Of a DNA stretch of 64,000 nt, positions 13,635-63,150 are shown in pieces. Source of the stretch: Bradyrhizobium elkanii USDA 76 (GTDB taxonomy: Bacteria > Pseudomonadota > Alphaproteobacteria > Rhizobiales > Xanthobacteraceae). How positions within the stretch are numbered: the stretch's first letter is position 1; each line of letters starts with the position of its first letter. The notes below the pieces were generated by a model, which saw only the letters and a program-made list of their open reading frames with translations, was not told the DNA's origin and did no database searches. Position numbers and translations under genes: made by a program. The stretch covers positions 1,356,001 through 1,420,000 of the forward strand of contig NZ_CP066356.1 of assembly GCF_023278185.1 (NCBI RefSeq), in the 5' to 3' direction.

Positions 13635-13648
13635 TTGACCCGCGTCAA
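13635..13648. promoter_or_regulatory. FixK/FNR-type box
   Basis: TTGACCCGCGTCAA, a full TTGA-N6-TCAA palindrome, 55 bases before the cytochrome c ATG at 13704. First box at the left edge of the island. Confidence 0.8.
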
Positions 13649-13703
13649 ACCAAGGGCGATCCAATACTGCTAAAAGCGCGTATCCGAAAAACTGGGGCAT
13701 GAT

Positions 13704-14153
13704 ATGATTATCTGTGGCCTGAAGTCTTTCATGATTGCTGGTCTGACCGCTGGTTTCGCCGCGGCCGCTCACGCTGAAGACGCCGATGTTGGCAAGGCGG
13801 AATTTCAAGCTTCGTGCGCAAGCTGTCATGGCGTGGATGGAAAGGGCAAAGGACCCGTTGCTGGGCAGCTGAGTGTGCCGCCTGCCGATTTGACGGCCTT
13901 GGCCAAGAACAACAACGGGGTCTTTCCTATTACCGCCGTCTACGAAGCCATCGACGGGCGGAGAACAATATCCGCGCACGGCACCCACGAAATGCCGATT
14001 TGGGGGGAACGGTTCAACCCCGTCAAGAACTTGCCTCACATTGTCGATCCGGCCTACGACGCGCTCGATCCTTCCCGGGATTTGCGGGAGGTCGTCGTGC
14101 GAACACGAATCCTTGCCATTATCGATTATCTGAACCGCATTCAGCAGAAGTAG
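13704..14153 (+). CDS. Periplasmic c-type cytochrome
   Basis: 149 residues with a signal peptide (SFMIAGLTAGFAAAAHAED). One haem c site CASCH at residues 38-42 and a probable distal Met in HEMPIWG (Met98). The Cys-to-Met spacing and the GKGKGPVAGQL loop resemble mono-haem class I cytochromes. Likely carries electrons in the periplasm during microoxic growth. It has its own FixK-type box and lies next to an insertion element that marks the left edge of the island. Confidence 0.9.
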   Translation: MIICGLKSFMIAGLTAGFAAAAHAEDADVGKAEFQASCASCHGVDGKGKGPVAGQLSVPPADLTALAKNNNGVFPITAVYEAIDGRRTISAHGTHEMPIWGERFNPVKNLPHIVDPAYDALDPSRDLREVVVRTRILAIIDYLNRIQQK

Positions 14154-14244
14154 CGCGCCGCGAAAGCTCCATGGGGTCCCCCGGCTACGCAATCTGCCGC
14201 AATAGATGGGCGGCAACCGCACGCGCGTCCAGGCGCTCCCATCA

Positions 14245-14258
14245 TTGATCCCCATCAA
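14245..14258. promoter_or_regulatory. FixK/FNR-type box
   Basis: TTGATCCCCATCAA, full match, 51 bases before ATG 14310. Confidence 0.8.
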
Positions 14259-14309
14259 GGCGGCTGCGAGCAAAGCCGGTAATGGTCATACGGAAACGGA
14301 GGATCGACG

Positions 14310-14810
14310 ATGACCGGCATAGTGCTCGACGCCCAGCAAATTCAGAACGCCCAAGCGCCCGTTCGCCTCTGGCTTGAGCAGCAGATTTCGGCCGCTCTCG
14401 GTCCGAGGCCGGCACCCGGAGCGTCGTCGCCCCGCCTGGTTGCCTGCACGGAAGCCCAGGCAGCGAACCTCCTCAATCGAATCAGGCAAGCGCCATCTGC
14501 GGTAGAAGTGTTCTTCGGACTCGCCCATCCTGAGATCTCGTTCGGTGACCCGCCGGTCGTGACGTTCCGGCTTCTCGATCTTCAGCGTCGCGCCGGCATG
14601 CAGAACATCGCCAAGCTCCTGGAATGTCTCGACCTCATCAACCGGTCATTTGCGGAAATATGTGGTGATCCGGCAACGCGTTTCTGTGACTTTGACGCCG
14701 CAGGGCATTGCTCGCTTCTGCCAGCCACTCAGTGCAGCATCGCCGCATTGTGGAAGGCGATCATTGCGGCGGAGCGGCCCGGCGTGCTGCCGATCGCCGC
14801 TGCCGAGTAG
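14310..14810 (+). CDS. Hypothetical protein, FixK-box controlled
   Basis: 166 residues starting MTGIVLDAQQIQNAQAPVRL. Predicted cytosolic, mostly helical, with four cysteines in its C-terminal half (LLECLD, EICGD, RFCDFD, GHCSLLPATQC) that could bind metal. A GGAGG site lies before the ATG. No family recognised. It is followed 16 bases later by a serine protease gene and probably forms an operon with it. Confidence 0.7.
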   Translation: MTGIVLDAQQIQNAQAPVRLWLEQQISAALGPRPAPGASSPRLVACTEAQAANLLNRIRQAPSAVEVFFGLAHPEISFGDPPVVTFRLLDLQRRAGMQNIAKLLECLDLINRSFAEICGDPATRFCDFDAAGHCSLLPATQCSIAALWKAIIAAERPGVLPIAAAE

Positions 14811-14826
14811 ACGGGGCGGGCGCGAG

Positions 14827-15597
14827 ATGAGCCCGAAAAGATCATGCCGCAAGTCGGCGCGGAAATGGTCGGAACGTCCGTTGTCATTCATCGTCGCCGT
14901 GACGTGCATGCTCCTGCTCTGGCCTAGACTGGTGCAAGCAGGGGAAATCCGGGATGTGCAAACTCTTGCGCCCCTGGTCGGGAAGGTTATCCAAAGTGTC
15001 GTCGGCATAACGGCCAGCACGGAGACGGCGGCAGCCTCCCGGTCAGGGAATTCCGGTCCCGAACTGCCCAGCGACCCGCGTCCCGCGACGAAAGATGTTT
15101 ACGGCGCAGGCGTCATCATCAAGGCAGAGTCCGGATTGATCGTGACGAGCAATCATGTGGTCAGCGGCGCCAAGACACTCTCGGTCCGATTGTCGGATGG
15201 GCGCCAGCTTGACGCTAGGTTCGTTGCGGCCGACGAGCGATACGATCTGGCGATGCTGAGGATTTCGGCCTCCGGCCTGACCGCGGCCCGCATCGGCCGA
15301 TCGGTCGACGCCGAGCCTGGCGATTTCGTCCTTGCGGCCGGTGGCTCCTTGAAATCCACTCCGAGCGTCAGCTTTGGCATCGTCAGCGCTCTGCATCGTT
15401 CGCGGCCCGGAAGCCCTTGCCGGGATCTCATTCAGACCGATGCCTTGCTGGATCGCGGCAGCGCAGGTGGGCCGCTGTTCAATCTGCGGGGCGAAGTGAT
15501 CGGCATTGTTGCCGCCAGCACCGGCGAGACCGAATCCGAGCGCGCCTTTGCGATTCCCTCGGATGCCATCGATCGCCTCTACATCAGAATGAATTAG
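14827..15597 (+). CDS. Periplasmic trypsin-like serine protease (HtrA-type core, no PDZ)
   Basis: 256 residues from ATG 14827 (GCGAG upstream). A signal anchor is at residues 19-38. The S1C catalytic triad is complete: His110 in TSNHVV, Asp140 in RYDLAML, Ser212 in DRGSAGGPL. It ends right after the protease domain (SDAIDRLYIRMN), so unlike DegP/DegS there is no PDZ domain and regulation must differ. Probably degrades damaged envelope proteins under low oxygen. Co-directional with the 14310 gene. Confidence 0.88.
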   Translation: MSPKRSCRKSARKWSERPLSFIVAVTCMLLLWPRLVQAGEIRDVQTLAPLVGKVIQSVVGITASTETAAASRSGNSGPELPSDPRPATKDVYGAGVIIKAESGLIVTSNHVVSGAKTLSVRLSDGRQLDARFVAADERYDLAMLRISASGLTAARIGRSVDAEPGDFVLAAGGSLKSTPSVSFGIVSALHRSRPGSPCRDLIQTDALLDRGSAGGPLFNLRGEVIGIVAASTGETESERAFAIPSDAIDRLYIRMN

Positions 15598-15680
15598 GTA
15601 TTCCGCGGGATCGCGGATCGTTTCGAAGTGCGACCGATTTGACTACCTAATGGTGATTGCTTGATGATCGTGCACCCGGA

Positions 15681-16428: not shown

Positions 16429-16442
16429 TTGACTCCGATCAA
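16429..16442. promoter_or_regulatory. FixK/FNR-type box, divergent
   Basis: TTGACTCCGATCAA, full match. 62 bases from the CBS-BON start at 16367 (-) and 56 bases from ATG 16498 (+); spacing fits control of both. Confidence 0.82.
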
Positions 16443-17677: not shown

Positions 17678-17691
17678 TTGATCTGGGTCAA
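17678..17691. promoter_or_regulatory. FixK/FNR-type box
   Basis: TTGATCTGGGTCAA, full match, 55 bases upstream of the LysE-type start at 17623 (-). Confidence 0.8.
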
Positions 17692-22007: not shown

Positions 22008-22021
22008 TTGACGAGGCTCAA
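22008..22021. promoter_or_regulatory. FixK/FNR-type box
   Basis: TTGACGAGGCTCAA, full match, 57 bases upstream of ATG 21951 (-). Confidence 0.78.
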
Positions 22022-23770: not shown

Positions 23771-24263
23771 TCCGATTGACGCCACGCGCCGCGAGGCGTT
23801 GGCGAACTGCTGGAAGGGACCGGAGCTGTCCTACTTCGATAGCCGGGAGATTGGTGCGATGTGCTCTGGAGATGGCAAGCGGCGGCTGCCGCAGCAACAC
23901 GGGAATGGAGCCGTCACCGTTGCGCAGCCACGTCAAGCGGCGAAGAATGCCGATGAGGTGGCGCAGAAGAAGACGCGTGCCTGAAAGCATCAGGACGACG
24001 CTTCATATTGGGCGTCCCGCGCCGAGCGGACGAAGCGCCAGGCCGCGCGACATCAGGACCAAGCGACCCGCGACCACTTCATGAAGATCGCGGCCGGATA
24101 TGAGGCCCTTGCGCGCTCGGCTCGCAGCATCGGACGGGATCCAGATTAGGCAGGCGACGGACGAAGAGCTCAGGCGGATCGAGGCAAGCTTGACCTAGCT
24201 CAACGTTGGCAGCGCTGCCATGCGCAACAATAGATGATCATTTCGGCCCGGTGGAGCAGACAC
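23771..24263. other. Stretch with a short gene remnant and the USP promoter
   Basis: About 23985-24149 (+) is open and protein-like (SYWASRAERTKRQAARHQDQ, FMKIAAGYEALARSARSIGR, stop 24149), but it has no start codon and a TGA in front. It looks like the tail of a small helical protein gene that has lost its beginning. The FixK-type box at 24190 follows. Confidence 0.4.
24190..24203. promoter_or_regulatory. FixK/FNR-type box
   Basis: TTGACCTAGCTCAA, full match, 61 bases before ATG 24264. Confidence 0.8.
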
Positions 24264-25264: not shown

Positions 25265-25278
25265 TTGATCACGATCAA
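25265..25278. promoter_or_regulatory. FixK/FNR-type box
   Basis: TTGATCACGATCAA, full match, 57 bases before ATG 25335. Confidence 0.82.
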
Positions 25279-26144: not shown

Positions 26145-26158
26145 TTGATGCGGATCAA
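26145..26158. promoter_or_regulatory. FixK/FNR-type box
   Basis: TTGATGCGGATCAA, full match, 60 bases before the start at 26085 (-). Confidence 0.8.
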
Positions 26159-28870: not shown

Positions 28871-28884
28871 TTGATGCGGCTCAA
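28871..28884. promoter_or_regulatory. FixK/FNR-type box
   Basis: TTGATGCGGCTCAA, full match, 64 bases before the MgtA-type start at 28807 (-). Confidence 0.8.
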
Positions 28885-29063: not shown

Positions 29064-29228
29064 ATGGAGCGATTTATTCACGACGAGAACCTGGCCTTGT
29101 TCAGGAAAAAGCTTGCAGATCCACAGCTGACGGACGAGGAACGCAAGGTCGTGCTCAAGCTGTTGGCCGATGAAGAAGCGAGACAGATTGCCTCTCAAGG
29201 CACGGCAGACGATCGCAAGCCGGATTGA
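29064..29228 (+). CDS. Small helical hypothetical protein
   Basis: 54 residues: MERFIHDENLALFRKKLADP then QLTDEERKVVLKLLADEEAR. Amphipathic helical, charged, cytosolic. This kind of short protein recurs in Bradyrhizobium genomes without a known function. An in-frame start at 29043 is possible. The next FixK-type box (29225) overlaps its stop codon. Confidence 0.6.
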   Translation: MERFIHDENLALFRKKLADPQLTDEERKVVLKLLADEEARQIASQGTADDRKPD

Positions 29229-29238
29229 TGCAGATCAA
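29225..29238. promoter_or_regulatory. FixK/FNR-type box without an intact target
   Basis: TTGATGCAGATCAA, full match. No intact gene starts 40-100 bases to either side; the plus-strand DNA that follows looks decayed. Confidence 0.65.
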
Positions 29239-30424: not shown

Positions 30425-30438
30425 TTGATCCTTATCAA
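30425..30438. promoter_or_regulatory. FixK/FNR-type box, possibly divergent
   Basis: TTGATCCTTATCAA, full match, 58 bases from GTG 30367 (-) and 48 bases from ATG 30487 (+, OpgC-type). Confidence 0.8.
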
Positions 30439-34958: not shown

Positions 34959-34972
34959 TTGACCTGGCTCAA
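34959..34972. promoter_or_regulatory. FixK/FNR-type box
   Basis: TTGACCTGGCTCAA, full match, 53 bases before ATG 34906 (-). It overlaps the stop region of the upstream cytochrome gene. Confidence 0.82.
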
Positions 34973-36271: not shown

Positions 36272-36285
36272 TTGAGCGAGATCAA
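36272..36285. promoter_or_regulatory. FixK/FNR-type box
   Basis: TTGAGCGAGATCAA, full match, 53 bases before phbB ATG 36339 (+). Confidence 0.8.
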
Positions 36286-45699: not shown

Positions 45700-45713
45700 T
45701 TGATCCTGGTCAA
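45700..45713. promoter_or_regulatory. FixK/FNR-type box, divergent
   Basis: TTGATCCTGGTCAA, full match, 57 bases from ATG 45643 (adh, -) and 63 bases from ATG 45776 (hsp20, +). Confidence 0.83.
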
Positions 45714-46796: not shown

Positions 46797-49534
46797 ATCG
46801 GGTTCTCTCGCCTCGATCGGTCGCGCTTGTCGGCGGCAGTTCGCGTCCGTCTTCGCTCGGTCTGGCGGTACTCATGAACCTCAAGACATGCGGTTTTGCC
46901 GGCCGCATCGCCGTAGTCAATCCGAAATACACTGCGATCGATGGCGAGATTACGTCCCGGGATATCAAATCACTTCCATTCGTTCCCGACCTCGTTGCGA
47001 TCACGGCGCCTGCGGCCGCGATTCCCGGAATCATATCGGACGCTGCCGCGGTCGGTGCCGCCGGTGCGGTCATCCTGTCCGCCGGCCTCGGACATGGTGC
47101 CGGCTCGCTAGCCGAGACGGTCGCGCAGACGGCGCGCCGGCACGGCATGCGCCTGATCGGGCCGAACTGTCTCGGCGTCATGGTGCCGCGCGCGAAGCTC
47201 AATGCGAGTTTTGCCGCGCATCAGCCCGCCGAAGGCTGTCTTGCCCTGATCTCGCAGTCCGGGGCCGTCGCTGCCGCGATGATCGAATGGGCGGCAGAGC
47301 GGCGGCGGCTCGGCTTCTCCGGCATCGTGTCGATCGGAGATCAGCTCGACGTCGATGTCGCCGATCTGCTCGATTATTTCGCGCAGGACGATCATACCAA
47401 CGCGATCCTGCTCTACGTCGAGGCCGTCAGGGATGCGCGCAAGTTCATGTCGGCCGCGCGCGCCGCGGCACGGCTCAAGCCCCTGATTGTCGTGAAAGCG
47501 GGCCGGGTGGCGCAAGGCGCCAAGGCCGCAGCCACCCATACGGGAGCGCTCGCCGGTTCGGACGCCGTCTATGACGCGGCGTTCCGCCGGGCCGGCATGC
47601 TGCGCGTGTACGACCTTCGGGAACTGTTCGACTGCGCCGAGTTGCTTGGCCGCGGCTTCGTTCCGCGCGGCAACCGCCTGTCGATCCTGACCAATGGCGG
47701 CGGGCTCGGCATCCTCGCGATCGACCGGCTCGTTGAGCTCGGTGGCGTTCCTGCAGGCCTGACGACGGAGACGATTGCGGCGCTCGATCGGGTCCTGCCG
47801 CAAGGCTGGTCTCGTGCCAACCCCATCGATATCTCCGGCGATGCCGACGCTGCCCGCTACGTGGCCGCGCTCGGCCCGCTGCTCGAGGACGCCAACAGCG
47901 ACGCCGTGCTGGTCATGAACGTGGAAACGGCTGTTGCGCCGACCGAACGGATTGCCGAAGCGGTCACGCGGTGCGTTGACGGCCGCCGAGCCAGGAACAG
48001 CGAGGTAGCCGCACTGGTGCTTGCGTCGTGGGATGGTGCCGACGCCCGCACGGCGGCGACCTTCGAGCGGGCGCGCGTCCCGCATTTCCCGACCGAGGAC
48101 GATGCAGTGCGCGCCTTCATGTATCTGGTGAGATACCGCGATGCTTCCATCGCGCTGGCCGCAACGCCGCCCAGCAGCGCCTCGACGTTTGCGCCGCGGA
48201 CGGCGGCGGCGAGGCACGTGATCGCGAAGGCGCTGTCCGAGAGGCGGGAATGGCTCGACCCGATCGAGATCGTCGCGCTGTTCGAGGCTTATGATATTCC
48301 GATCGTTCCGACCGTCGTGGCCCGTGATGCCGACGATGCCGTGGACAAGGCAGCGCCCTTCCTGGCGCAAGGGCTTGCCGTGGCGGTGAAGCTGTTCTCG
48401 CGCGACATCAGGCACAAGTCGGACATCGGCGGTGTCATTCTCGGCCTGCGGACTCGCGAAAGCGTCGCACAGGCCGCCAGGACGGTGCTGGCGCGCGCTC
48501 GTGCCGCGCGTCCGGATGCCGCCCTGCAGGGCGTGACGATCCAGCCGATGATCGAGCGGCGGGCGGCACGTGAGCTGATCCTTGGCATTGCCGACGATCC
48601 GACCTTCGGCCCGGTGATCGTGTTTGGCCGCGGCGGCACCGCGGTTGAGGTGATCGACGACAAGGCGTTGGCGCTGCCACCCCTCGACATGAACCTGGCG
48701 CGCGACCTCGTCGGGCGCACGCGGGTCTCGCGGTTGCTTGCCGCCTACCGCGACGTACCCGCCGTTCCGGAAGATGTCGTTCCGCGCACCCTCGTCAAGC
48801 TGGCGCAGATGGCGGCCGATATTCCCGAAGTCGCGGAGCTCGATATCAATCCGCTGCTGGCTGACGAAACCGGCGTGATGGCGCTCGACGCGCGGGTGGC
48901 GGTCCGCAAGCCGGCGCGGCTGTTCGCCGGTCAGACACGACTTGCAGTGCGGCCCTACCCGTCGCAGTGGGAGGGCGAGCTTGCTCTAAGGGATGGCTCG
49001 CGCGTCGTGGTGCGGCCGCTGCGGCCGGAAGATGAGCCCATGGTGGAGAGCTTCTTCAAGCGAGTGACCGCCGAGGATCTCAGGCTTCGCTTCTTTCAGG
49101 CGATGAAGAATTTCTCGCACGCGTTCATTGCGCGGTTGACCCAACTCGACTACGCGCGTGCGATGGCCTTTGCGGCGCTGGATCCAGCTACGGGTGCCAT
49201 GGTTGGAGCGGTCCAGCTTCATTCCGACTCGCTCTATGAGAATGCCGAGTACGCTATCCTGTTGCAGTCTGATCTCAAGGGCAAAGGGCTTGGATGGGCG
49301 CTGATGCAGCTCCTGATCCGTTATGCGAAGTCGGAAGGGCTGAAGCGGCTGTCTGGCGAAGTGCTGGCCGAGAACAGCACCATGTTGAGCATGTGCCATG
49401 AGATCGGATTCACGGCGGCCACAGAGCCGACCGACCACAGGATCGTCAATGTCGTTCTCGATCTCTCCCTTCCGGTGGTGGATGCCTTGGGCGTCGACAT
49501 CCTGATCCGGCAAAGTGCAATCAGAGCGGCGTGA
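46778..49534 (+). CDS. Acyl-CoA synthetase (NDP-forming type)-GNAT acetyltransferase fusion
   Basis: 918 residues. CoA-binding domain (RSVALVGGSSRPSSLGLAVL), succinyl-CoA-ligase-like domains (GPNCLGVMVPRAKLNASFAA, LISQSGAVAAAMIEWAAE, THTGALAGSDAVYDA), ATP-grasp domain (QGLAVAVKLFSRDIRHKSDI, then VIFGRGGTAVEV-like), and a C-terminal GNAT domain from about residue 745 (VVRPLRPEDEPMVESFFKRV). This is the Pat/PatZ layout: acetylation of lysines on central enzymes such as acetyl-CoA synthetase. It could also make or use acetyl-CoA. In an island with phosphoketolase and acetate kinase it links acetyl pools to control. Confidence 0.9.
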   Translation: MSTFGLDRVLSPRSVALVGGSSRPSSLGLAVLMNLKTCGFAGRIAVVNPKYTAIDGEITSRDIKSLPFVPDLVAITAPAAAIPGIISDAAAVGAAGAVILSAGLGHGAGSLAETVAQTARRHGMRLIGPNCLGVMVPRAKLNASFAAHQPAEGCLALISQSGAVAAAMIEWAAERRRLGFSGIVSIGDQLDVDVADLLDYFAQDDHTNAILLYVEAVRDARKFMSAARAAARLKPLIVVKAGRVAQGAKAAATHTGALAGSDAVYDAAFRRAGMLRVYDLRELFDCAELLGRGFVPRGNRLSILTNGGGLGILAIDRLVELGGVPAGLTTETIAALDRVLPQGWSRANPIDISGDADAARYVAALGPLLEDANSDAVLVMNVETAVAPTERIAEAVTRCVDGRRARNSEVAALVLASWDGADARTAATFERARVPHFPTEDDAVRAFMYLVRYRDASIALAATPPSSASTFAPRTAAARHVIAKALSERREWLDPIEIVALFEAYDIPIVPTVVARDADDAVDKAAPFLAQGLAVAVKLFSRDIRHKSDIGGVILGLRTRESVAQAARTVLARARAARPDAALQGVTIQPMIERRAARELILGIADDPTFGPVIVFGRGGTAVEVIDDKALALPPLDMNLARDLVGRTRVSRLLAAYRDVPAVPEDVVPRTLVKLAQMAADIPEVAELDINPLLADETGVMALDARVAVRKPARLFAGQTRLAVRPYPSQWEGELALRDGSRVVVRPLRPEDEPMVESFFKRVTAEDLRLRFFQAMKNFSHAFIARLTQLDYARAMAFAALDPATGAMVGAVQLHSDSLYENAEYAILLQSDLKGKGLGWALMQLLIRYAKSEGLKRLSGEVLAENSTMLSMCHEIGFTAATEPTDHRIVNVVLDLSLPVVDALGVDILIRQSAIRAA

Positions 49535-50003: not shown

Positions 50004-50017
50004 TTGATCTGGGTCAA
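50004..50017. promoter_or_regulatory. FixK/FNR-type box, divergent
   Basis: TTGATCTGGGTCAA, full match, 73 bases from ATG 49931 (-) and about 93 bases from the Mla-type permease start (+). Confidence 0.75.
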
Positions 50018-51979: not shown

Positions 51980-53089
51980 ATGGAAATCCGCGCGCCCTAT
52001 ATCGTCGTTGGTGCATTCGTGTTATCGGCGATCGTCGCCGTGTTCGGCTTCGTCTACTGGCTGAACAATGTCGGGGGGATTGGGAAACGGCAGACATATC
52101 AGCTGGTTTTCGCCGATCCGGTGCCCGGACTGCTGGTCGGGGCGGGCGTCCTCTTCAATGGCATCCGCGTCGGCGAAGTGACCGCGCTTGAGCTGGATCC
52201 GGACCGTCCGCGCGAGGTTCACGCCACGATCGCAGTCGCCGAGCGTACGCCGGTGCATAGCGATACGCGCGTCGGCCTCGATTTCCAGGGACTGACTGGT
52301 GTTCCGGTGATCGCGCTCGAAGGCGGCGATGATCCCCAGGCGCCGCCGGCGCGCGAACCGCTGGTGGCCGAAAAGGGGGCCGGGCGGAGCATGACGCAGG
52401 CCGCCCGCGATGCACTACGCCGGGTCGATGCCGTCCTGTCCGAGAACGCCGCGCCGCTGCACAGCACGATCGACAATCTCAGCACGTTCGCCGAAGGGCT
52501 CGCGCGCAACACGCCGAAGCTCGACGGTATCGTGGCCGGGCTGGAACGCATGACCGCCGGTGGTGCGCCCGCGCCGCGCAAGGTAGTGTACGACCTTCAC
52601 GCGGTGGACGACTTCGGAGCGCAGCGCCATGCCAATCTGCCCGAGCAACTGGTCATGGCGGAGCCGACCGCGATCGCACGCTTGCAGACCCAGCGCTTCC
52701 TGTTTTCGCCGGATGAAGAAACTCAGGGGTTCGAAGGTGCGCAGTGGGGCGATAGTCTCCCGGTGCTGGTGCAGGCGCGGTTGCTGCAGAGCTTCGAGAA
52801 TTACGACGTCGACCATGCGCCACTGCGGGCCGACAGCGGTGTAGAGGGTACGCCGCGCCTGCTGATCGACCTGCGTCGGTTCGAAATTGTGCAGGGAGCC
52901 CAACCGCGCGCGACGATCTCCCTGTCCGCGAAGATCGTCGATCGAAATGGGCGGGTAAAGGCCGCCAAGCTTCTTGAGGGATCCGAAGGGATAAACTCGC
53001 TCACACCATCCGAGGCGGCAGCCGCATTCGATCGGGCCTTCGGGTCTCTCGCAAGGGAGCTCGTGATGTGGGTTGCATCGACGGACTAG
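51980..53089 (+). CDS. mlaD: MlaD/MCE protein fused to an ABC-type auxiliary (PqiC-like) domain
   Basis: 369 residues from ATG 51980. Membrane anchor (YIVVGAFVLSAIVAVFGFVY), MCE domain (~35-130: YQLVFADPVPGLLVGAGVLF, GLDFQGLTGVPVIALEGG), a linker with a coiled-coil-like stretch (~145-205), then a separate beta-rich domain (~205-369: KVVYDLHAVDDFGAQRHANL, LPVLVQARLLQSFENYDVDH) like the PqiC/ABC_trans_aux lipoprotein, here fused to MlaD. Completes the Mla-type operon under the 50004 box. Overlaps the end of ackA (convergent). Confidence 0.87.
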   Translation: MEIRAPYIVVGAFVLSAIVAVFGFVYWLNNVGGIGKRQTYQLVFADPVPGLLVGAGVLFNGIRVGEVTALELDPDRPREVHATIAVAERTPVHSDTRVGLDFQGLTGVPVIALEGGDDPQAPPAREPLVAEKGAGRSMTQAARDALRRVDAVLSENAAPLHSTIDNLSTFAEGLARNTPKLDGIVAGLERMTAGGAPAPRKVVYDLHAVDDFGAQRHANLPEQLVMAEPTAIARLQTQRFLFSPDEETQGFEGAQWGDSLPVLVQARLLQSFENYDVDHAPLRADSGVEGTPRLLIDLRRFEIVQGAQPRATISLSAKIVDRNGRVKAAKLLEGSEGINSLTPSEAAAAFDRAFGSLARELVMWVASTD

Positions 53090-54270
53090 CGACCTGTGCG
53101 CAGCAGGCTGCGGCAGTGCCGCGCAATACTGACTTCCTCATTGGTCGGAATGACCAGTACGTCGACCGGACTGCCCTTCGCGGCGATGCGTTGTTCGCCC
53201 TGTACATTTGCTGCCGTATCGATGCTGACGCCGAGCCGGGAGAGGCGATCGCAGACGCGTTGCCGGATGTCCGCGGCATGCTCGCCAATGCCGCCGGTGA
53301 GCACCAGGCCGTCGAGGCCGGCAAGGATATTTGCCATCACGGCGACTTCTGCGGCGACACGAAATGTGAAGAGATCGATGGCTTCGCGGGCCTCGGGCTT
53401 TTGGCTCGCCAGTAGGGCGCGCATGTCGGCTGACAGCCCTGAGACGCCGAGCAGGCCCGAACCTTCGTACAGCAAATGTTGTACGTCATCGACCGACATC
53501 CTTTCTTCCTGCAAGAGATAAAGCAGTACGCCGGGATCTATCGTTCCACAGCGGGTCCCCATGACGAGACCGTCGAGCGGGGTCAATCCCATGGTGGTGT
53601 CGACGCTGTTGCCCTTCTGCAGGGCACAGAGGCTCGCGCCGTTGCCGAGATGCGCCACGACGACGCGCTTGTCCGCCCATTGCGGCGCGATCGCGGCGAG
53701 TTGGCTCGCGACGTATTCGAAGGAGAGGCCGTGGAAGCCGTAGCGACGGATGCCGCGCTCCTCAAAGTGCCGCGGGATGGCAAAGCGGCTGGCCGGCGGC
53801 GCCAGGCCGTGATGGAAGGCCGTGTCGAAGCAGGCGATCTGCGTCAGCTGCGGCCGCAGCGATTGCACGGCGCGGACCGGCGCCAGGCAGCGCGGCTGGT
53901 GCAGCGGCGCAAGCGGCGTCAAGGCCTCCAGCGCGGCGATAGCCTGCCCTGTGATGACGACCGGTCGATAGAACGCACGCCCGCCATGGACGATACGATG
54001 CCCGACGGCGGCGAGCTTGCCGCCGGCGAGATAGTCCTCGATCCAGGCAAATACGTCGCTGAACAGGCCGTTGTCCTCCGACGTGCCGCTCGGGCGACGC
54101 CTCTCGAACAGCTGCCTGCCCGAGGCATCGCTCATCACGATGCGCGGGACCTTCTCCTGCTCATCGAGCAAGCCCCTGCATTGCAGCTTTGGCTCGGCCG
54201 GTGCGATGTCGAACAGGCCGAACTTGATGCTGGACGAGCCGGCGTTGAGCACCAGGACGCTGTCGGACAT
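53086..54270 (-). CDS. ackA: Acetate kinase
   Basis: 394 residues from ATG 54270: MSDSVLVLNAGSSSIKFGLF (N-A-G-S-S-S-x-K signature). HRIVHGG and FDTAFH motifs, second signature AHLGNGASLCALQKGNSVDT, nucleotide loop LTGGIGEHAADIRQRVC. Converts acetyl phosphate plus ADP to acetate plus ATP. It follows the phosphoketolase gene by 28 bases, so the pair turns sugar phosphates into ATP without oxygen. Confidence 0.95.
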   Translation of the reverse strand: MSDSVLVLNAGSSSIKFGLFDIAPAEPKLQCRGLLDEQEKVPRIVMSDASGRQLFERRRPSGTSEDNGLFSDVFAWIEDYLAGGKLAAVGHRIVHGGRAFYRPVVITGQAIAALEALTPLAPLHQPRCLAPVRAVQSLRPQLTQIACFDTAFHHGLAPPASRFAIPRHFEERGIRRYGFHGLSFEYVASQLAAIAPQWADKRVVVAHLGNGASLCALQKGNSVDTTMGLTPLDGLVMGTRCGTIDPGVLLYLLQEERMSVDDVQHLLYEGSGLLGVSGLSADMRALLASQKPEAREAIDLFTFRVAAEVAVMANILAGLDGLVLTGGIGEHAADIRQRVCDRLSRLGVSIDTAANVQGEQRIAAKGSPVDVLVIPTNEEVSIARHCRSLLRTGR

Positions 54271-54298
54271 GGACCGTCTTTCTCGCGTGTTCGCTGCC

Positions 54299-56710
54299 TC
54301 AGTCAACGCATTTGTGGTCTGTCGTACCGTAGGGCCAGACCCAGTCACGGATCTGCGGCATGTCCTCGCCATGCTCGCGCACGTAGCGGGTGTGCTCGGT
54401 CAGGGCGTCACGGAATCGCCGCTTGACGTGGGCTGCCGCGATGCCGAGCCCCGGCATGCGCTCGATTGCCTCGATGGCGAGATGGAAGCGGTCGAGGCCG
54501 TTCAACACTACCATGTCGAACGGGGTCGTGGTGGTGCCTTCCTCCGCGAAGCCCCGCACGTGCATTCCGTCGTGATTGGTGCGGCGGTAGGTCAAGCGAT
54601 GGATCAGATAGGGATAGCCGTGATAGGCGAAGACGACAGGCTTGTCGCGGGTGAACAGGCTGTCGAAGTCGCGGTCGGACAGGCCGTGCGGATGCTGCTC
54701 CATCGGCTGCAGCGTCATCAAGTCAACCACGTTGACGACGCGGATCCTTAGTTCCGGCAGCGCCTTGCGGAGCAGGTCGACGGCGGCGAGCGTCTCCAGC
54801 GTCGGAACGTCGCCGGCGCAGGCCATCACCACGTCGGGCTCAGCATTGGGGGGCTCGGTGCCGGCCCAATCCCATATCCCGATGCCGGCTTCGCAATGGG
54901 TGATTGCCGCACGCATCGAAAGCCATTGCGGGGCAGGTTGCTTGCCCGCCACGATCACATTGATGCGGTCATAGGTGCGCAAGCAGTGATCGCCGACCCA
55001 GAGCAGGGTGTTGGCATCGGGCGGAAAGTAGACGCGGACAATGTCGGCCTTCTTGTTGGTGACGAGATCGACGAAGCCGGGATCCTGATGACTGAATCCG
55101 TTGTGGTCCTGACGCCAGACATGCGAGGTGAGGAGATAGTTCAGCGACGCGATCGGTCGTCGCCAAGGCAGCGCGCGCGAGACCTTCAGCCATTTGGCGT
55201 GCTGGTTGAACATTGAATCCACGATGTGGATGAAGGCTTCATAGCAGGAGAAGAAGCCGTGCCGGCCCGTGAGCAGATAGCCTTCGAGCCAGCCATGGCA
55301 GAGATGCTCGCTCAGGACTTCCATCACGCGGCCGTCATGGGCGAGGTGGACGTCGTAAGGCTCGATGCCTTCCATCCAGACCCGGTCGGTGGCCTCGAAT
55401 ACCGCGTCGAGCCGGTTCGACGCGGTTTCGTCCGGACCCATGATGCGGAAATTGCGGGCTTCCGCATTCAACTCCACGACCTCGCGCAAGAACTTGCCGA
55501 GTTCCCGCGTGGCTTCGGCGACGACCTCGCCCGGAGCGGTGACCTCGACCGCATACGCACGGAAATCCGGCAGCTTCAGCTCCCGCTTCAGGAGGCCGCC
55601 ATTGGCGTGCGGGTTGGCACCCATCCGACGGGCGCCTGCGGGCGCAAGGGCTTGCAATTCAGCTACCAGCCGCCCGTTTGCATCGAACAGGCTTTCAGGC
55701 TCGTAGCTCCTCATCCAATGCTCGAGCAGCTTCAGATGCTCGGGGTTGCCGCGCGGGTTGGCGATCGGCACCTGATGTGCACGCCAGAATCCTTCGACCT
55801 TCAACCCATCGACCTCCTTTGGTCCGGTCCAGCCCTTCGGGCTGCGCAGCACGATCATCGGCCATCGCGGCCGCTTAAGGTCGCCGGGCTGCTGCCGCGC
55901 GGCTTGCTGGATTGCGCGGATGCTGCCGAGCGCAGTGTCGAGCGTGCTGGCCATCGAGCGATGCATCGCATGCGGATCGTCGCCTTCGACGAACAGCGGC
56001 TCGTAGCCGTAGCCAGTGAAGAGGCTACGGACGTCCTCGTCATCCATCCGCCCCAGCACGGTGGGATTGGCAATCTTGTAGCCATTGAGGTGCAGGATTG
56101 GCAGCACTGCGCCGTCATGCTTCGGGTTCAAGAACTTGTTGGAATGCCAGGAGGCCGCGAGCGGGCCGGTCTCTGCCTCGCCGTCGCCGACGACGCAAAC
56201 GGCGATCAAATCGGGGTTGTCGAACACTGCGCCATATGCGTGAACCAACGCATAGCCGAGTTCACCGCCTTCGTGGATCGAGCCGGGTGTTTCCGGCGCG
56301 GCGTGGCTTGGAATGCCGCCGGGGAAGGAGAATTGACGGAACAGCTTGCGCAAGCCGTCCAAATCGCGCGTCACCTCCGGATAGAGCTCCGTGTAGGTTC
56401 CTTCGAGATAGGTGTTCGCGACCATGCCGGGGCCGCCATGGCCGGGACCGCAGATATAGATGACGTTGAGGTGGGAAGTGCGGATTGCACGATTGAGGTG
56501 AGCATAGATGAAGTTGAGCCCGGGCGTGGTGCCCCAATGTCCAAGCAGGCGCGGCTTGATGTGCTCCAGCTTCAGCGGCTCTCTCAGAAGCGGATTCGCG
56601 AGCAGGTAGATCTGTCCAACGGAGAGATAATTGGCGGCTCGCCAATAGCGGTCGAGCAGCACAAGATCGTCCGCCCGCGCTTGCTCGTTTGGAGTGGTCG
56701 CAGATTGCAT
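54299..56710 (-). CDS. xfp: Phosphoketolase
   Basis: 803 residues from ATG 56710 (GGGAGAACGAC before it). N-terminal [20 protein letters not shown], ThDP region [15 protein letters not shown] and [21 protein letters not shown]-terminal [20 protein letters not shown] and [12 protein letters not shown]. Cleaves xylulose 5-phosphate and/or fructose 6-phosphate to acetyl phosphate using thiamine diphosphate. Full FixK-type box 79 bases upstream. First gene of the xfp-ackA operon. Confidence 0.95.
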
Positions 56711-56789: not shown

Positions 56790-56803
56790 TTGAGCCAGCT
56801 CAA
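56790..56803. promoter_or_regulatory. FixK/FNR-type box
   Basis: TTGAGCCAGCTCAA, full match, 79 bases before the phosphoketolase ATG 56710 (-). Confidence 0.78.
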
Positions 56804-57532: not shown

Positions 57533-57546
57533 TTGATCCGGATCAA
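57533..57546. promoter_or_regulatory. FixK/FNR-type box
   Basis: TTGATCCGGATCAA, a perfect palindrome throughout, 85 bases before ATG 57448 (-). The DNA between it and fixJ (57547-57756) holds no supported gene. Confidence 0.78.
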
Positions 57547-57756: not shown

Positions 57757-58365
57757 CTAGAGCCCGGCAGCGATCGCGATCCGCATCAATTCCGACATGC
57801 TGCGCACATTGGTCTTGGCCATCAGGTTGGCACGGTAGACCTCGACCGTGCGTGGGCTGATGCCAAGGTCGTGCGCAATCACCTTGTTGATCTTGCCCGC
57901 CACGAGCCCCCGCAGAACGTCACGTTCGCGCGGCGAGAGATCCACGAGGCGAGCTTCAGCCTCGCGCTTGACCGTGCCGTCGGCCGGGGCCGCGGACTGT
58001 GTCCGCAGGGCTTCGCCGATTGCGCGCAACAGCGCCTCGTCCTCGAACGGCTTTTCAATGAAGTCAACCGCACCTGCCTTCATCGCCTCGACCGCGAGTG
58101 CGACGTCTCCATGGCCAGTCATCAGAATGACCGGGCATGCGACCGCGTCGACCTTGAGTTTGCGGACCAATTCGAGGCCGCTCATGCCGGGCATACGGAT
58201 ATCAGATACAATGCAGTCGACTGTGCTGCCGGCGAGATGATCGAGAAAATCGGTTGCCGTCTCATAAGAGGTTACGGCAAAGCCGTTGACGTCAAGAAGA
58301 AAGGCCAGTGAGTCCCGCATAGCTGGATCATCGTCGATCACGAGAATTGTACGCCGCGTTGTCAT
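57757..58365 (-). CDS. fixJ: Response regulator FixJ
   Basis: 202 residues. Receiver domain: Asp11/12, phospho-acceptor Asp55 (IVSDIRMPG), Thr83, Lys105 (EKPF). C-terminal LuxR-type helix-turn-helix ([37 protein letters not shown]). The [13 protein letters not shown] helix matches FixJ. Activated by FixL at low oxygen; should switch on fixK. Overlaps fixL by 4 bases (ATGA). Confidence 0.95.
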
Positions 58366-59792
58366 GCTTCTTCTCCGTCCTCCGCGAACGGGAGGATGAA
58401 CTGAAAAACCGTGCCGCCACCAGCGTTTGGCATCACATCGATGCGTCCGCCATGGGATTCGATGATGGTCCGGCAGATCGAGAGGCCGACGCCCATGCCA
58501 TGCTCCTTGGTCGTGATAAAGGGCTGAAATAAGCGGTCGGCGATATCGGGGCTGATGCCCGGGCCGGTATCGGCGATAGTGAACGTCGCAACACCGTTAG
58601 TCTTGGTGACGCCGACGGTCAATTCGCGGCGCGGGCCCGAGGCCATCGCCTCGATCGCGTTGCGAACCAGGTTGAGCACGACCTGCTGAATCTGGATTTT
58701 ATCGACGATGATCGAGGGCATGTCGCGGTCGCTGCGGATCGTCACCCGGACGCCCTGCTCCTTGGCGCCGAGCAGCGCTAGTGCGACAGCCTCTTCGAGC
58801 AGGGTTGCCGGGCTCTCCAGGGACTGTTGGGTCTCGCCCTTGGCGACAAATTCGCGCAGGCGCTTGATGATGTCGCCGGCCCGTAGGGCTTGCTGCGCGG
58901 CCCGCTCGAGCGCATCCCGAATGCGGGTAGCATCCGGTATCTCCGACGCCAGCAGCGCCTTCGCACCGCGCATGTAGTTCGTGATGGCTGACAGCGGCTG
59001 GTTGATCTCATGCGCGATTGAGGACGCCATCTCACCCATGGCGGTCAATCGCGACACATGAACCAGCTCGGACTGCAGCTCCTGCAGCCGCCGTTCTTGC
59101 GCTCGACGTTCGGTGAGATCGCGGATAAAGCCGGTGAAGAAGCGTTCTCCACGTACCTTAGCCTCGCCGACGGCGAGTTCCATCGGAAACGTCGAGCCGT
59201 CACTTCGTTCTCCGACCACGATGCGGCCGATGCCGATGATGCGCCGTTCGCCGGTCGTAAGGTATCGCTCGAGATACCGGTCGTGCTCGCCGCGATACGG
59301 CTGGGGCATCAGGCTCGAAACGTTCTTTCCGACGACTTGGTCCGCTTTCCAGCCAAACAGGCGCTCGGCTGCCGCGCTGAAGGAGCGAATAATGCCGTGG
59401 TCGTCGATGACGATCATCGCATCAGGGACCGTGTCGAGGATTGATTGCAGATGGGCCTGGCGATTTCGCGCTTGATCGCTCTCCTTCAGTAGCCGGTCAC
59501 CCATAAAGCCAAGGATCGGACCGAGGACAGCAAAACAGGCGATATCGATCAGATTCGCAGGTTCAGTGACCAGGCTCCTGCCGAGGAATTTGGCGCTGAT
59601 GACGAGGCAGAGCAGGGTGGTGAGGATCGCCGGACCGCGACCGCCGGCGAACGCGGCAAACAGCACGGCGGGGACAAAGATGATCGTGAACGTCCGGTCT
59701 TCGAAATAGTTATCGAGCCCCGCGCGCACCGCGAATACGAGCGCGGCCGCTGCCGCGGCAGTGCCATAGCGGTACCAGATGCGGTCGGACAT
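58362..59792 (-). CDS. fixL: Oxygen-sensing histidine kinase FixL
   Basis: 476 residues. N-terminal membrane segments (~10-100), then a haem-binding PAS domain (~115-230) with the probable haem-ligand His170 ([10 protein letters not shown]) and the FixL regulatory Arg190 ([11 protein letters not shown]). Kinase: H-box His261 ([12 protein letters not shown]), N-box [11 protein letters not shown] boxes DTGPGIS and GMGVGLSI. Deoxy-haem turns the kinase on. One PAS is clear; the N-terminal half is membrane-bound as in S. meliloti FixL. Confidence 0.95.
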
Positions 59793-60527: not shown

Positions 60528-60541
60528 TTGACATGCGTCAA
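60528..60541. promoter_or_regulatory. FixK/FNR-type box
   Basis: TTGACATGCGTCAA, full match, 57 bases before the phasin ATG 60471 (-). Confidence 0.82.
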
Positions 60542-60826: not shown

Positions 60827-60840
60827 TTGACGCACGTCAA
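60827..60840. promoter_or_regulatory. FixK/FNR-type box
   Basis: TTGACGCACGTCAA, full match, 52 bases before ATG 60775 (-). Confidence 0.82.
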
Positions 60841-61075: not shown

Positions 61076-61089
61076 TTGATTCCCGTCAA
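61076..61089. promoter_or_regulatory. FixK/FNR-type box
   Basis: TTGATTCCCGTCAA, full match, 54 bases before the tiny membrane protein start 61022 (-). Confidence 0.82.
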
Positions 61090-61098
61090 GTGCAGCCA

Positions 61099-61112
61099 TT
61101 GAGGGAGATCAA
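61099..61112. promoter_or_regulatory. FixK/FNR-type box
   Basis: TTGAGGGAGATCAA, full match, 55 bases before ATG 61168 (+); 23 bases from the previous box, so the two divergent genes each have their own site. Confidence 0.82.
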
Positions 61113-61914: not shown

Positions 61915-62120
61915 TCGTTCGCCCAGCAATCATACTGACGCCGTTGATCGCGACCGCAGTGGTCAGCGCCGATGTCGTGGGATTCGCCGCAACGTTGCTT
62001 GTGATCTGTGCGATCGTTGGTTTCGCGATTGCTGCCGCTGGATGGACCGTCAACGGCAAGACGACGTCAATACCGGCGGTCCAGCCCTCATCCGCAGACT
62101 GGAAATCTCGCCACAAATAG
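61911..62120 (+). CDS. Small two-helix membrane protein coupled to CBS-BON
   Basis: 69 residues: MIVRPAIILTPLIATAVVSA then FAATLLVICAIVGFAIAAAG. Two hydrophobic helices and a polar tail. Start overlaps the CBS-BON stop by 4 bases (ATGA), so translation is coupled. Unrecognised. Confidence 0.7.
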   Translation: MIVRPAIILTPLIATAVVSADVVGFAATLLVICAIVGFAIAAAGWTVNGKTTSIPAVQPSSADWKSRHK

Positions 62121-62240
62121 TACCTCGTCCGGTCCGGTTGTCGTTCCTGGTCACGTGAGCCGCACGTCGCGAAATGCGCGTGGTCCGCGCGGTCGAGATC
62201 GTTCAAGCTCTGCTCGCCTTGCAATACAGAGCAAGCCGTT

Positions 62241-62254
62241 GCGACAGATCAATA
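62241..62254. promoter_or_regulatory. FixK-like box, TTGC variant
   Basis: TTGCGACAGATCAA, 58 bases before ATG 62313 (+). TTGC is an accepted half-site variant; the spacing is typical. Confidence 0.6.
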
Positions 62255-62312
62255 CGGGCGCCTCGCACTGATGGCAGCGTCAGCAACGGGAATCAGCCCA
62301 TGCGAGGGTGCC

Positions 62313-62540
62313 ATGCCATCATTCGATGTTCGCTTCATCAAAACCGTTTGCGACGACACCGGCCACGAGCATCGCGCCTGCCAGGCAGTGTTCAAGGTCG
62401 ACGCTGCCTCGCTTTCCGCGGCCGCACAGCTGGCCGAGGCCGACTTCTGTAGGCAGAAGGGTGTCCGCGACTGGACGATCTTTGCCGATTCCATGGAGCT
62501 TCGAACGCCGCCGGCTTTGCCGTCGGCCTGGGGCGGCTAG
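62313..62540 (+). CDS. Small conserved hypothetical protein
   Basis: 75 residues from ATG 62313 (GAGG upstream): MPSFDVRFIKTVCDDTGHEH then AVFKVDAASLSAAAQLAEAD. Alpha/beta, with three cysteines. An in-frame ATG at 62271 would put the start too close to the box. Unrecognised. Confidence 0.65.
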   Translation: MPSFDVRFIKTVCDDTGHEHRACQAVFKVDAASLSAAAQLAEADFCRQKGVRDWTIFADSMELRTPPALPSAWGG

Positions 62541-62586
62541 CGCCCCTTGGGCGGCCGTCGCGATCGATTGCCGCGCTATCGCGTGC

Positions 62587-62600
62587 TTGATCGGTATCAA
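62587..62600. promoter_or_regulatory. FixK/FNR-type box
   Basis: TTGATCGGTATCAA, full match, 52 bases before ATG 62653 (+). Confidence 0.82.
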
Positions 62601-62652
62601 ATCGACAATCGGGTCCTTCGGCTAGAGATGGAGAGCCAAAAGGGGGTGAGAA

Positions 62653-63150
62653 ATGATCGACCGATCAGCTGGCAATAGCTCGCCGCAGTTCAAGAATCTT
62701 CTCGCGCGCTTGCGAGCGTTTCTTGCGCGTCGACACGAATTCGATCTGTTGACCGCTAGGGAGATCGACGAGATCGCGCACGAGCTGAATCTGCCGACGT
62801 CGGACCTTCGTGCGCTTGCCCGCGAGCAAGGTTCGCCGGAGTTGCTCAGCAAGCGTCTCGAGCATGCAGGGTTGTCCGAGCAGACGCTCGCGTCGTCCCA
62901 TTGCGATGTGTTGCGTGATCTGCAGCGAGTGTGCGGTCTATGCCGTGAGAAGGCTCGCTGCGCCGCGGATCTCGCGCGGGAAAGGCGGGCCAGTCCGGCA
63001 CGATACTGTCCGAATGAACTAACCCTGACGGCGCTGAGCCGCGGCGCCAGCGGCGCTCGGCATGGCGCAGGAATTGATGCCGATCAAGTAGCTGGCGGCG
63101 AGATTGTAGTCTCCATGACGCCACCGCATCCAAAGAAAGCTTCCACATGA
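62653..63150 (+). CDS. DUF6455-like cysteine-containing protein, long C-terminus
   Basis: 165 residues. N-terminal helical part ([20 protein letters not shown]), then [20 protein letters not shown] and [16 protein letters not shown]: the CxxC...C...YCPN pattern of the DUF6455 family. Family proteins usually end soon after YCPN; here about 40 more residues of low-complexity text run into the fixN leader, and the stop overlaps the fixN ATG (ATGA). A lost stop is likely. Confidence 0.75.
63074..63087. promoter_or_regulatory. FixK/FNR-type box of fixN
   Basis: TTGATGCCGATCAA, full match, 60 bases before the fixN ATG 63147 (+). It lies inside the DUF6455-like reading frame. Confidence 0.85.

Follow-up and report, generated by a model that had tools for sequence, protein, structure and literature searches.

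A duplicated cluster of predicted low-oxygen genes with closely spaced FixK-type boxes in Bradyrhizobium elkanii USDA 76

The window analysed here (64,000 nt of Bradyrhizobium elkanii USDA 76, NZ_CP066356.1, positions 1,356,001-1,420,000, forward strand) is crowded with TTGA-N6-TCAA palindromes, which raises the question of what reads these sites and why they are gathered in one place. The available portions of PMC9104804 and PMC5582078 give TTGA/C-N6-T/GCAA as the FixK2-type box of Bradyrhizobium diazoefficiens. We conclude from the sequence that FixK-type activators very probably use the boxes as operators, in a low-oxygen regulon island that is self-contained and duplicated. The island in the window is called copy A and its duplicate copy B; sites past 64,000 and gene ends are given in window numbering.

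Number and layout of the boxes

The exact motif occurs 24 times in the window, with 0.41 expected and a maximum of two in 100 shuffles. Between 13635 and 63087 there are 23 sites, the same number of full palindromes as was counted in a first-pass annotation. That annotation noticed no box in the first 13 kb, where the 24th site lies at 10853; this site has no aligned counterpart in any of the six homologous islands. A scan with the wider consensus TTGM-N6-KCAA finds 38 sites including the 24 exact ones, with 3.67 expected. Between 13 and 73 kb there are 29 one-mismatch sites, 15 of them intergenic according to our own gene calls, and 9 of these 15 are invariant in three quarters or more of the islands that align. 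The seven near variants proposed earlier agree roughly with the 15 intergenic sites and with the 9 that are well kept. Three more exact boxes follow the window end, at 66624, 71486 and 71627.

A genome-wide motif scan, which the first-pass annotation had suggested, shows clustering far above background. The 9.5 Mb genome has 225 exact sites (positions itemised for 191) and 28 sites for the control pattern read backwards. As 27 of the 225 fall in 60.8 kb at copy A (10853 counted) and another 27 in 56.5 kb around copy B, the density is far from uniform. Other stretches of the same genome, of 80, 60, 255, 80 and 400 kb, hold 15, 12, 0, 6 and 10 boxes, respectively. A compositional artefact or a repeat family, for which palindromy alone would count, is virtually impossible as the source of this excess. 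The shuffles and the reversed pattern refute an origin by chance or composition, and the six spacer bases, which vary between sites, argue against a repeat.

The boxes and genes of the island are, from left to right:

11467..11952, left edge: fragment matching the 3' part of an acetyl-CoA synthetase gene and sequence downstream, 86.7% to G000:C1:1544849-1545356 (this gene flanks copy B)
12169..13515, +: IS5-family transposase (NF033578, 504.6 bits, cut-off 275), between the left-edge fragment and the first island gene
13635..13648: box, 55 bases ahead of the cytochrome c gene
13704..14153, +: small cytochrome c, cbb3 subunit III-like domain (PF13442/PF00034)
14245..14258: box, 51 bases ahead of a 166-aa gene without family match in profile scans
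16429..16442: box between divergent genes for a host-attachment protein (55 bases) and a CBS-type protein (61 bases)
17678..17691: box, 54 bases ahead of LysE translocator (16997-17623, -)
22008..22021: box ahead of CBS-BON protein (21232-21951, -)
24190..24203: box ahead of universal stress protein (24264-25085, +)
25265..25278: box ahead of 70-aa YgaP-like membrane protein (25335-25547, +)
26145..26158: box without clear target, retained in copy B and three relatives
28871..28884: box ahead of Mg-type P-ATPase (26198-28807, -)
29225..29238: box without clear target
30425..30438: box ahead of CBS-type protein (29612-30367, -), facing OpgC gene (30610-31710, +); retained in 6/6 islands
31739..33091, -: hemN, oxygen-independent coproporphyrinogen III oxidase (TIGR00538, 398.7 bits, cut-off 324.95)
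33147..33824, -: fixK, CRP/FNR-type regulator with serine where FixK2 has C183
33883..33920, -: FixJ-like control block ahead of fixK (TAAG ... CSNAATWT), conserved in seven islands
34959..34972: box ahead of CBS-type protein (34184-34906, -; placed by homology)
36272..36285: box between an acetoacetyl-CoA reductase/CBS/PHA synthase run (36339-39756, +) and universal stress protein (35340-36176, -)
45700..45713: box between Hsp20-type protein (45776-46249, +) and zinc alcohol dehydrogenase (44660-45643, -)
46874..49534, +: acetate/acyl-CoA synthetase-like protein (NDP-forming) with GNAT-like end (NCBIfam matches under cut-offs)
50004..50017: box between 136-aa gene (49521-49931, -) and MlaE/ABC/MCE lipid transporter genes (50156-53089, +)
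53086..56710, -: acetate kinase and phosphoketolase genes
56790..56803: box, 79 bases ahead of phosphoketolase
57533..57546: box, 84 bases ahead of an 85-aa gene (-)
57757..58365, -: fixJ, response regulator (NF006900)
58362..59792, -: fixL, sensor kinase with FixL-type haem PAS domain
60528..60541: box ahead of 118-aa gene of no known family (60115-60471, -)
60827..60840: box without clear target, retained in 6/6 islands
61076..61112: two boxes ahead of CBS-BON protein (61168-61914, +)
62587..62600: box ahead of 165-aa gene of no known family (62653-63150, +)
63074..63087: box ahead of fixN, at 89 bases, or 59 to an in-frame upstream ATG
63177..64000, +, running on to 64799: fixN (named by position and homology)
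after fixN, to 71029 beyond the window: fixO, Q, P, G, H, I and S (Q, P, H and S named by position and homology)
island right end: NnrS gene

The island extends beyond the window end and reaches about 73.9 kb. In the cbb3 operon fixO (TIGR00781), fixG (TIGR02745) and the copper P-ATPase gene fixI (TIGR01511) all score over the cut-off. The acetyl-CoA synthetase gene flanking copy B has ACAS_N/AMP-binding Pfam domains, and a 99.8% identical protein copy of the IS5-family transposase lies at 1330752.

A Shine-Dalgarno-like start of an ORF of at least 60 aa lies 50-64 bases from 15 of the 23 boxes, compared to 219 of 2000 random intergenic positions, which bears out the claim that most boxes stand 52-64 bases before a start codon. 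Such a start is absent for the other 8, and three boxes (26145, 29225 and 60827) have no clear target gene. Around copies A and B only 2 of 54 boxes overlap a called gene, though 78-82% of the sequence is coding. For 23 promoters, hand-picked with regard to ribosome site and gene, the 23rd base past the box is the first of a -10-like TAnnnT; its position two is A in 17 of the 23, a count equalled in none of 2000 permutations. This fixed distance corresponds to a predicted layout in which transcription starts 40.5 bases from the box axis, and it agrees with the suggestion of an activator placed near -40. According to the available part of PMC5582078, the mapped start of B. diazoefficiens nosR is likewise 40.5 bases from the box axis. 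The exact-motif scan of the window found no box between fixL and the preceding gene.

Most of the box-flanked genes that were scanned belong to known families and few are unknown, contrary to the proposal of many small unknown regulon members. Several represent families of B. diazoefficiens FixK2 targets, which include phosphoketolase-acetate kinase, Usp, host-attachment, Hsp20, PhaC2, CBS and HemN2 proteins in Table 2 of PMC9104804, as far as the accessible text goes.

The FixL, FixJ and FixK genes and the reading of the boxes

The PAS domain of the island FixL aligns closely with solved FixL and retains the HD-Y-RY and GRIV segments, in which we take the conserved histidine and arginine residues to be haem-binding; the kinase part aligns too. 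Its score of 533.2 is below the NCBIfam sens_FixL_Rhizob cut-off of 850, and FixJ reaches 281.1 bits, above its cut-off of 255. The closest solved relative of the island FixK is FixK2 (4i2o, E 7.4e-59), and its score of 242.4 is below the cut-off of 300 for TransRegFixKCaul, a Caulobacter model. The FNR-type cysteine cluster is absent from the island FixK, which has, counted from the first Met, one cysteine in copy A and two in copy B. The original assignment as FixK-type sites holds up, and the region carries its own FixL, FixJ and FixK.

The FixJ-like block ahead of fixK is found in all seven aligned islands, with 38 of 38 positions identical in copy B; the core fixK (7.0 Mb) shares 33 of the 38. 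In the stretches of the genome searched it recurs only ahead of fixK in these two loci. The TAAG-to-CSNAATWT start spacing is 27 bases here compared to about 31 in published fixK promoters. Given this conserved promoter ahead of the island fixK, the FixL-FixJ-FixK cascade appears to be self-contained in the island.

The idea of a single regulator is doubtful. The genome has nine FixK-like matches, at least four of them at 51-100% identity; these four, which may all read the same box, are the two island copies, one gene at 7.0 Mb and one at 5.77 Mb. It is quite conceivable, though we lean against it, that the boxes are mainly read by another CRP/FNR regulator (the 5.77-Mb FixK2-like protein, the 7.0-Mb core FixK, or an FNR/NnrR/Dnr type) and that the island FixK is minor. 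Besides the number of FixK-like genes, the NnrS gene at the right end speaks for this, as does the fact that TTGA-N6-TCAA is a general FixK-type box in the available portion of PMC5582078. However, FixK, FixJ and FixL are intact in both copies with low dN/dS between them (0.07, 0.06 and 0.05), and the FixJ-like block is almost invariant over the seven islands.

Serine replaces the cysteine of FixK2 C183 in 8 of 8 island FixK copies, and the 5.77-Mb paralogue has cysteine. The core FixK likewise has serine, and we therefore dropped serine as an island-specific trait.

Duplication, conservation and distribution

Copy B is collinear with and 92% identical to copy A and lies 172-175 kb downstream. 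Synonymous divergence between the copies is 0.22 and the median dN/dS is 0.11 (44 gene pairs). The sequence thus shows a duplication of the block inside the lineage, with most gene pairs under purifying selection. Of 120 sites that align across the six homologous islands, 114 are intact (the other 42 of 162 site-by-island cells did not align and were excluded). The fixed bases are identical in 951 of 960 cells (99.1%), compared to 614 of 720 spacer cells and 4094 of 5160 flank cells (79.3%). The boxes thus look to be under selection and appear functional.

Could copy A be a redundant, decaying duplicate whose boxes are conserved merely through recent duplication? The left edge of copy A, with the transposase and a truncated flank gene, fits with this, as does an apparent broken third copy at 3.08-3.16 Mb. 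We find it very unlikely in view of the divergence and dN/dS given above, and because the boxes are far better retained than spacers and flanks against other species too. Furthermore, copy A retains phosphoketolase, acetate kinase and Ca-type ATPase whole, which are lost or truncated in copy B: there phosphoketolase has no match and acetate kinase is called as 119 aa.

Further loci were considered. The stretch at 3.08-3.16 Mb was set aside as a separate FixK cluster, since parts of island genes accompany its 15 boxes; it seems to be, at least in part, a broken third island copy. The region at 5.74-5.80 Mb has the FixK2-like gene, weak FixL/FixJ matches (37-39%) and no fixNOQP match, and was rejected as the usual fixK2-fixNOQP locus; a compact core fixLJ-fixNOQP locus, the third in the genome, lies at 7.0 Mb. 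An acyl-CoA synthetase paralogue pointed to a dense third copy at 8.96 Mb, which was rejected with 0 boxes in 255 kb. A link to the nif region was also discarded, as the sole nifH over the family cut-off is at 7.56 Mb and not beside the islands.

The term genomic island holds in the sense of a coherent low-oxygen cluster and less so in the sense of a transferred element. Horizontal spread as a mobile island is unlikely in our judgement, even though presence is patchy: island-type acyl-CoA synthetase (>=83%) plus FixL (>=93%) occur in 6 of 117 genus genomes, our own included. A Phenylobacterium conjugative plasmid carries a partly similar gene set with 2 exact boxes in 41 kb, an IS5 element sits at the island edge, and three of five relatives have no flank match in the stretches of our genome compared. 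On the other hand, dS from the same relative is about equal for the island (0.317) and the core fix locus (0.339), which gives no indication of a recent transfer. Relative G107 shares the left flank of copy B and G004 part of its right flank, and the window has no tRNA genes. GC is 0.62 in copy A and 0.59-0.65 elsewhere, and plasmid relatives reach at most 61% for FixL and less than 60% for the island-type FixK.

Relation to known systems and implications

The preferred reading, a duplicated FixK regulon island, belongs to a known kind of regulon (FixLJ-FixK), and its gathering in one duplicated block is what appears to differ. In the accessible parts of the sources, the USDA110 FixLJ-FixK2 regulon has the same cascade, the same box, overlapping target families and a box about 40 bases before the start, mapped there and predicted here. 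In this best-studied relative the targets are spread over several clusters, judged by locus numbers, whereas here they form one 60-kb block that includes fixL, fixJ and fixK and is present twice. FixK2 has an oxidation-sensitive C183 where the island and core FixK have serine. Part of the gene set recurs in regions of other Bradyrhizobium genomes that resemble the bll6060-blr6074 cluster (PMC6515984, available portion). PHA synthase, CBS, kinase-AAA, acyl-CoA synthetase and MlaE/ABC/MCE genes occur in 5 of 5 such regions, dehydrogenase in 2 of 5, with 7-10 exact boxes per 80 kb. Their FixK is 40-41% identical to that of the island in four and unmatched in the fifth, and in none of the five regions examined is fixLJ or fixNOQP-GHIS of the island type matched. 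Sinorhizobium meliloti pSymA and Rhizobium leguminosarum pRL9/pRL10 also provide several fixK and fixNOQP copies per genome, mostly in plasmid-borne fix clusters according to the available text of PMC3164228 and PMC7888657, whereas here two blocks of 60 kb, each with 27 exact boxes in and around it, lie on the chromosome. The core fixK-fixJ-fixL-fixNOQP-fixGHI locus has orthologous fix genes (68-88% protein identity, fixS unmatched at threshold) and the FixJ-like block, but 6 boxes in 80 kb and a synonymous divergence from the island of about 1.1. In the open-access literature searched, as far as its text was available, we found no description of a duplicated FixK island in Bradyrhizobium.

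Set beside the sites, their conservation, the promoter layout, the genes and the duplication seen here, characterised relatives suggest how sensing, phosphotransfer and activation would proceed and when induction would occur. The FixL haem PAS domain would sense a fall in oxygen and FixL would phosphorylate FixJ, which would turn on the island fixK from its conserved promoter. FixK would then bind TTGA-N6-TCAA about 40 bases before transcript starts and recruit RNA polymerase. This would induce the high-affinity cbb3 oxidase with its assembly genes, oxygen-independent haem synthesis, phosphoketolase-acetate kinase, PHB metabolism, and stress and ion-transport proteins.

A more speculative proposal, which we consider rather doubtful, is that an oxygen-sensing cascade and its targets may evolve as one duplicable unit. 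A new copy would already be wired because the regulator would be duplicated along with its FixJ-driven promoter and dozens of operators; copies A and B might then divide targets, and serine FixK might stay active under oxidative stress when the 5.77-Mb FixK2-like protein is off. The serine of the core FixK makes this slightly less likely. Of A and B, only A keeps phosphoketolase, acetate kinase and Ca-type ATPase whole.

The conserved boxes provide a clean list of candidate promoters, and the serine/cysteine contrast between the island and core FixK and the FixK2-like protein gives a testable prediction on oxidation control. As a natural experiment, the island may show how networks that share operators after duplication avoid cross-talk, and it raises the question of why one bacterium retains three fixLJ-cbb3 sets.

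Density and conservation of the FixK boxes

The exact palindrome TTGA-N6-TCAA (FixK box) occurs 24 times in the window (main contig, 1356001–1420000), compared to 0.41 expected, and 23 of these boxes lie inside 13635–63087, which confirms the cluster claimed in the first-pass annotation. The 9.52-Mb genome, in two contigs, contains 225 exact boxes vs 28 for the reversed pattern. The genome scan bears out the local density: 27 boxes fall within 60.8 kb of the main contig (1366853–1427640) around the island that begins in the window (copy A), and another 27 within 56.5 kb (1542965–1599473) around a collinear second copy (copy B). Lesser groups are found at 3.10–3.14 Mb (15 boxes) and 5.75–5.79 Mb (12 boxes). 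There are no boxes across 255 kb close to 9 Mb, and contig 2, fetched almost entirely, has 10 boxes in 400 kb and no dense group. Individual positions come from three narrower patterns, which located 191 of the 225 boxes.

Copy A was aligned to six homologous islands: copy B, those of B. acaciae and B. embrapense, and one each from three further genomes. The full box is kept in 114 of the 120 aligned site-by-island cells (162 cells, of which 42 were unaligned and dropped). Identity to A is 951/960 cells for the fixed bases, 614/720 for the spacers and 4094/5160 for the flanks, figures biased upward by the choice of boxes present in A and of alignable cells, though flanks and boxes were taken from one set of alignments. 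Judged from sequence conservation, the boxes are under selection. At 18565, a box with a one-base break in A is whole in all five other aligned islands.

Although 82% of the sequence around A is coding, just one of its 27 boxes overlaps a gene call. The proposed spacing to start codons also holds: a start codon lies 50–64 bases from 15 of the 23 boxes, compared to 219 of 2000 random intergenic positions, and from 13 of the 27 boxes around B. In 23 promoters, hand-selected by ribosome-binding site and gene, a TAnnnT element starts at the 23rd base past the box (first T in 11, second A in 17 and sixth T in 13 promoters), a level reached by none of 2000 permutations. With the box axis set at –40.5, this element falls in the –10 region. 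For B. diazoefficiens nosR, PMC5582078 reports a mapped start of transcription at a distance of 40.5 bases from the axis of the FixK box.

A predicted local FixLJ–FixK cascade and the genes flanked by boxes

Regulators are encoded at, among other loci:

57757–59792 (window): FixL and FixJ genes
6.993–7.007 Mb (same genome): core set, fixK-fixJ-fixL with fixNOQP-GHI

The PAS domain of the island FixL aligns over its full length with solved FixL and keeps the HD-Y-RY and GRIV segments, which contain the haem ligand and the oxygen-sensing arginines. A block upstream of fixK is nearly invariant in all seven islands, while neighbouring sequence drifts; the fixL upstream region, the sole other one so aligned, has no comparable block. 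The fixK block (33883–33920) contains TAAG and CSNAATWT, described as elements of FixJ-dependent fixK promoters in PMC4999443, with a separation of 27 bases compared to about 31 in published fixK promoters. TAAG-N20..32-CSNAATWT has its single match in the window at this block. The block recurs at fixK of copy B (38/38 bases) and of the core locus (33/38), and in the other stretches of this genome searched, including the region of a FixK2-like paralogue at 5.77 Mb, the best match is at most 22/38. The FixLJ–FixK cascade is thus predicted to be encoded locally.

According to PMC9104804, B. diazoefficiens FixK2 is controlled through oxidation of C183, and the C183S variant is oxidation-insensitive and active. 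The residue at this position is lineage-dependent: serine in all eight island FixK sequences examined, cysteine in the 5.77-Mb paralogue and proline in the more distant core FixKs of two other genus genomes (G009 and G104). Serine as an island-specific trait is ruled out, since the core FixK of the same genome also has it. By analogy with C183S, island FixK would be insensitive to oxidation; it contains another cysteine, away from the C183 position.

Genes were called with a custom script rather than a standard gene finder, and families were assigned by profile scans, with several matches under NCBIfam cut-offs.

Gene families of the island (family scans unless stated otherwise)
Regulators: FixJ, FixL, FixK
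HemN; products of fixO, fixG and fixI
PHB-type enzymes: acetoacetyl-CoA reductase, PHA synthase
P-ATPases: Mg-type, Ca-type
Zinc alcohol dehydrogenase; Hsp20-type protein; acyl-CoA synthetase-GNAT
Acetate kinase; phosphoketolase; two universal stress proteins
MlaE and MCE transporter parts
51226–51963: ABC ATPase, named from its position between the MlaE and MCE genes
Nine CBS-type proteins: six by Pfam, two by CBS-containing NCBIfam models, one by homology
Host-attachment protein, LysE, OpgC, small cytochrome c
NnrS, past the window end

Many small unknown genes had been anticipated as regulon members. Unknown genes prove to be a minority among the box-flanked proteins scanned, a set that excludes two short ORFs (next to boxes 26145 and 60827) and an 85-aa protein near 57448: only the proteins at 14310, 49521 (scanned with Pfam only), 60115 and 62653 drew no family match. 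The low-oxygen FixLJ–FixK regulon island stands as a reading; its abundance of unknown genes does not.

A series of four CBS-type paralogues, 55–69% alike, runs across the island (61168–61914, 21232–21951, 22389–23120 and 34184–34906); Pfam finds a BON domain in three of the series, with 34184 outside the Pfam scan. A beta-CASP metallo-hydrolase (19793–21181) has as top NCBIfam match a type VII CRISPR Cas14 model, at 369 far under the cut-off of 800. An APH (phosphotransferase-like)–AAA_33 fusion (43080–44663) has no NCBIfam match; five further genomes of the genus carry a 49–51% relative in their related cluster. Left of the island, 3400–12000 yields few convincing genes with the custom caller and helicase-like pieces at 10.2–11.7 kb, and looks like a decayed stretch.

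Duplication, age and distribution

Copies A and B are collinear, 172–175 kb apart and 92.1% identical across 51 kb. Identity per 1.5-kb window ranges from 86.5 to 97.7%, a spread that may reflect gene conversion. The copies are sisters in a seven-sequence tree (31,232 shared columns); at the protein level, the acyl-CoA synthetase of A scores 96% to B. embrapense vs 91% to B. Over 44 A–B gene pairs the median dS is 0.22 and the median dN/dS 0.11, with two truncated pairs as outliers (acetate kinase, 1.56, 119 aa in B; a CBS gene, 0.50). Of the 50 genes called in A, six lack a counterpart in B, including phosphoketolase and the Ca-type ATPase.

B is probably at the older site, because its left flank is also found in the genus genome G107 and its right flank, in part, in G004, and because A starts with a fragment of the acetyl-CoA synthetase gene flanking B, plus an IS5 transposase. 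For three other relatives, a flank match is absent in the own-genome stretches compared. A further stretch of the main contig (3080001–3160000), with 15 boxes and fragments of several island genes (HtrA-like, beta-CASP, Usp and, over 53 aa, FixL), has the appearance of a third copy in decay.

All 31 named relatives identified for one island protein belong to Bradyrhizobium (embrapense, acaciae, uaiense and others), the closest of them members of the B. elkanii group. Six of 117 genus genomes, this one included, carry an island-type acyl-CoA synthetase (at least 83%) and FixL (at least 93%), and both are present twice in this genome and in G069. A seventh, G108, has FixL at 89% without the island-type synthetase. 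In G107 the island fixL (C1:1683392–1684819) has one in-frame stop codon, and this copy may be inactive. About 80% relatives of the window synthetase were found in several related species, and a 79% paralogue lies at 8962913–8965552 of the main contig, in the 255 kb without a FixK box.

The core set, the third in this genome beside those of A and B, is separated from the island by a dS of about 1.1 and is thus old relative to it. Over seven fix genes, dS from G107 is 0.317 for the island and 0.339 for the core, and this likeness disfavours recent transfer. Non-synonymous change from G107 in these genes is half as large in the island (0.022 vs 0.044).

Relation to known regulons

PMC9104804 (Table 2) lists as FixK2-dependent in B. 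diazoefficiens phosphoketolase–acetate kinase, universal stress, host-attachment, Hsp20, PhaC2, CBS and HemN2 genes, these or their operons each preceded by a box. Microoxia-induced proteins include members of bll6063–blr6074 (MCE, ABC, MlaE, GNAT, Usp, CBS) and of blr2761–2769, according to PMC6515984. Part of the island gene set also occurs in five further genomes of the genus, with 7–10 boxes per 80 kb, but island-type fixLJ and fixNOQP were not found there. On a conjugative plasmid of Phenylobacterium zucineum HLK1, a stretch of about 40 kb carries fixL-like, fixJ and FixK-like (51%) genes together with phosphoketolase, acetate kinase, ppsA and three universal stress genes, yet exact boxes number just two in 41 kb. 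S. meliloti and R. leguminosarum are reported to have several copies of fixK and fixNOQP (PMC3164228, PMC7888657), and Bradyrhizobium sp. BTAi1 five of fixK (PMC4999443). In the open-access literature searched, we found no description of regulon and cascade in one duplicated block, which is not proof of absence. The box cluster is upheld as an observation and its interpretation in part: the locus is, as predicted from its genes and boxes, a FixLJ–FixK low-oxygen regulon island in two copies, whose regulon is known in kind from the B. diazoefficiens FixK2 targets and the like gene sets of the five genus genomes.
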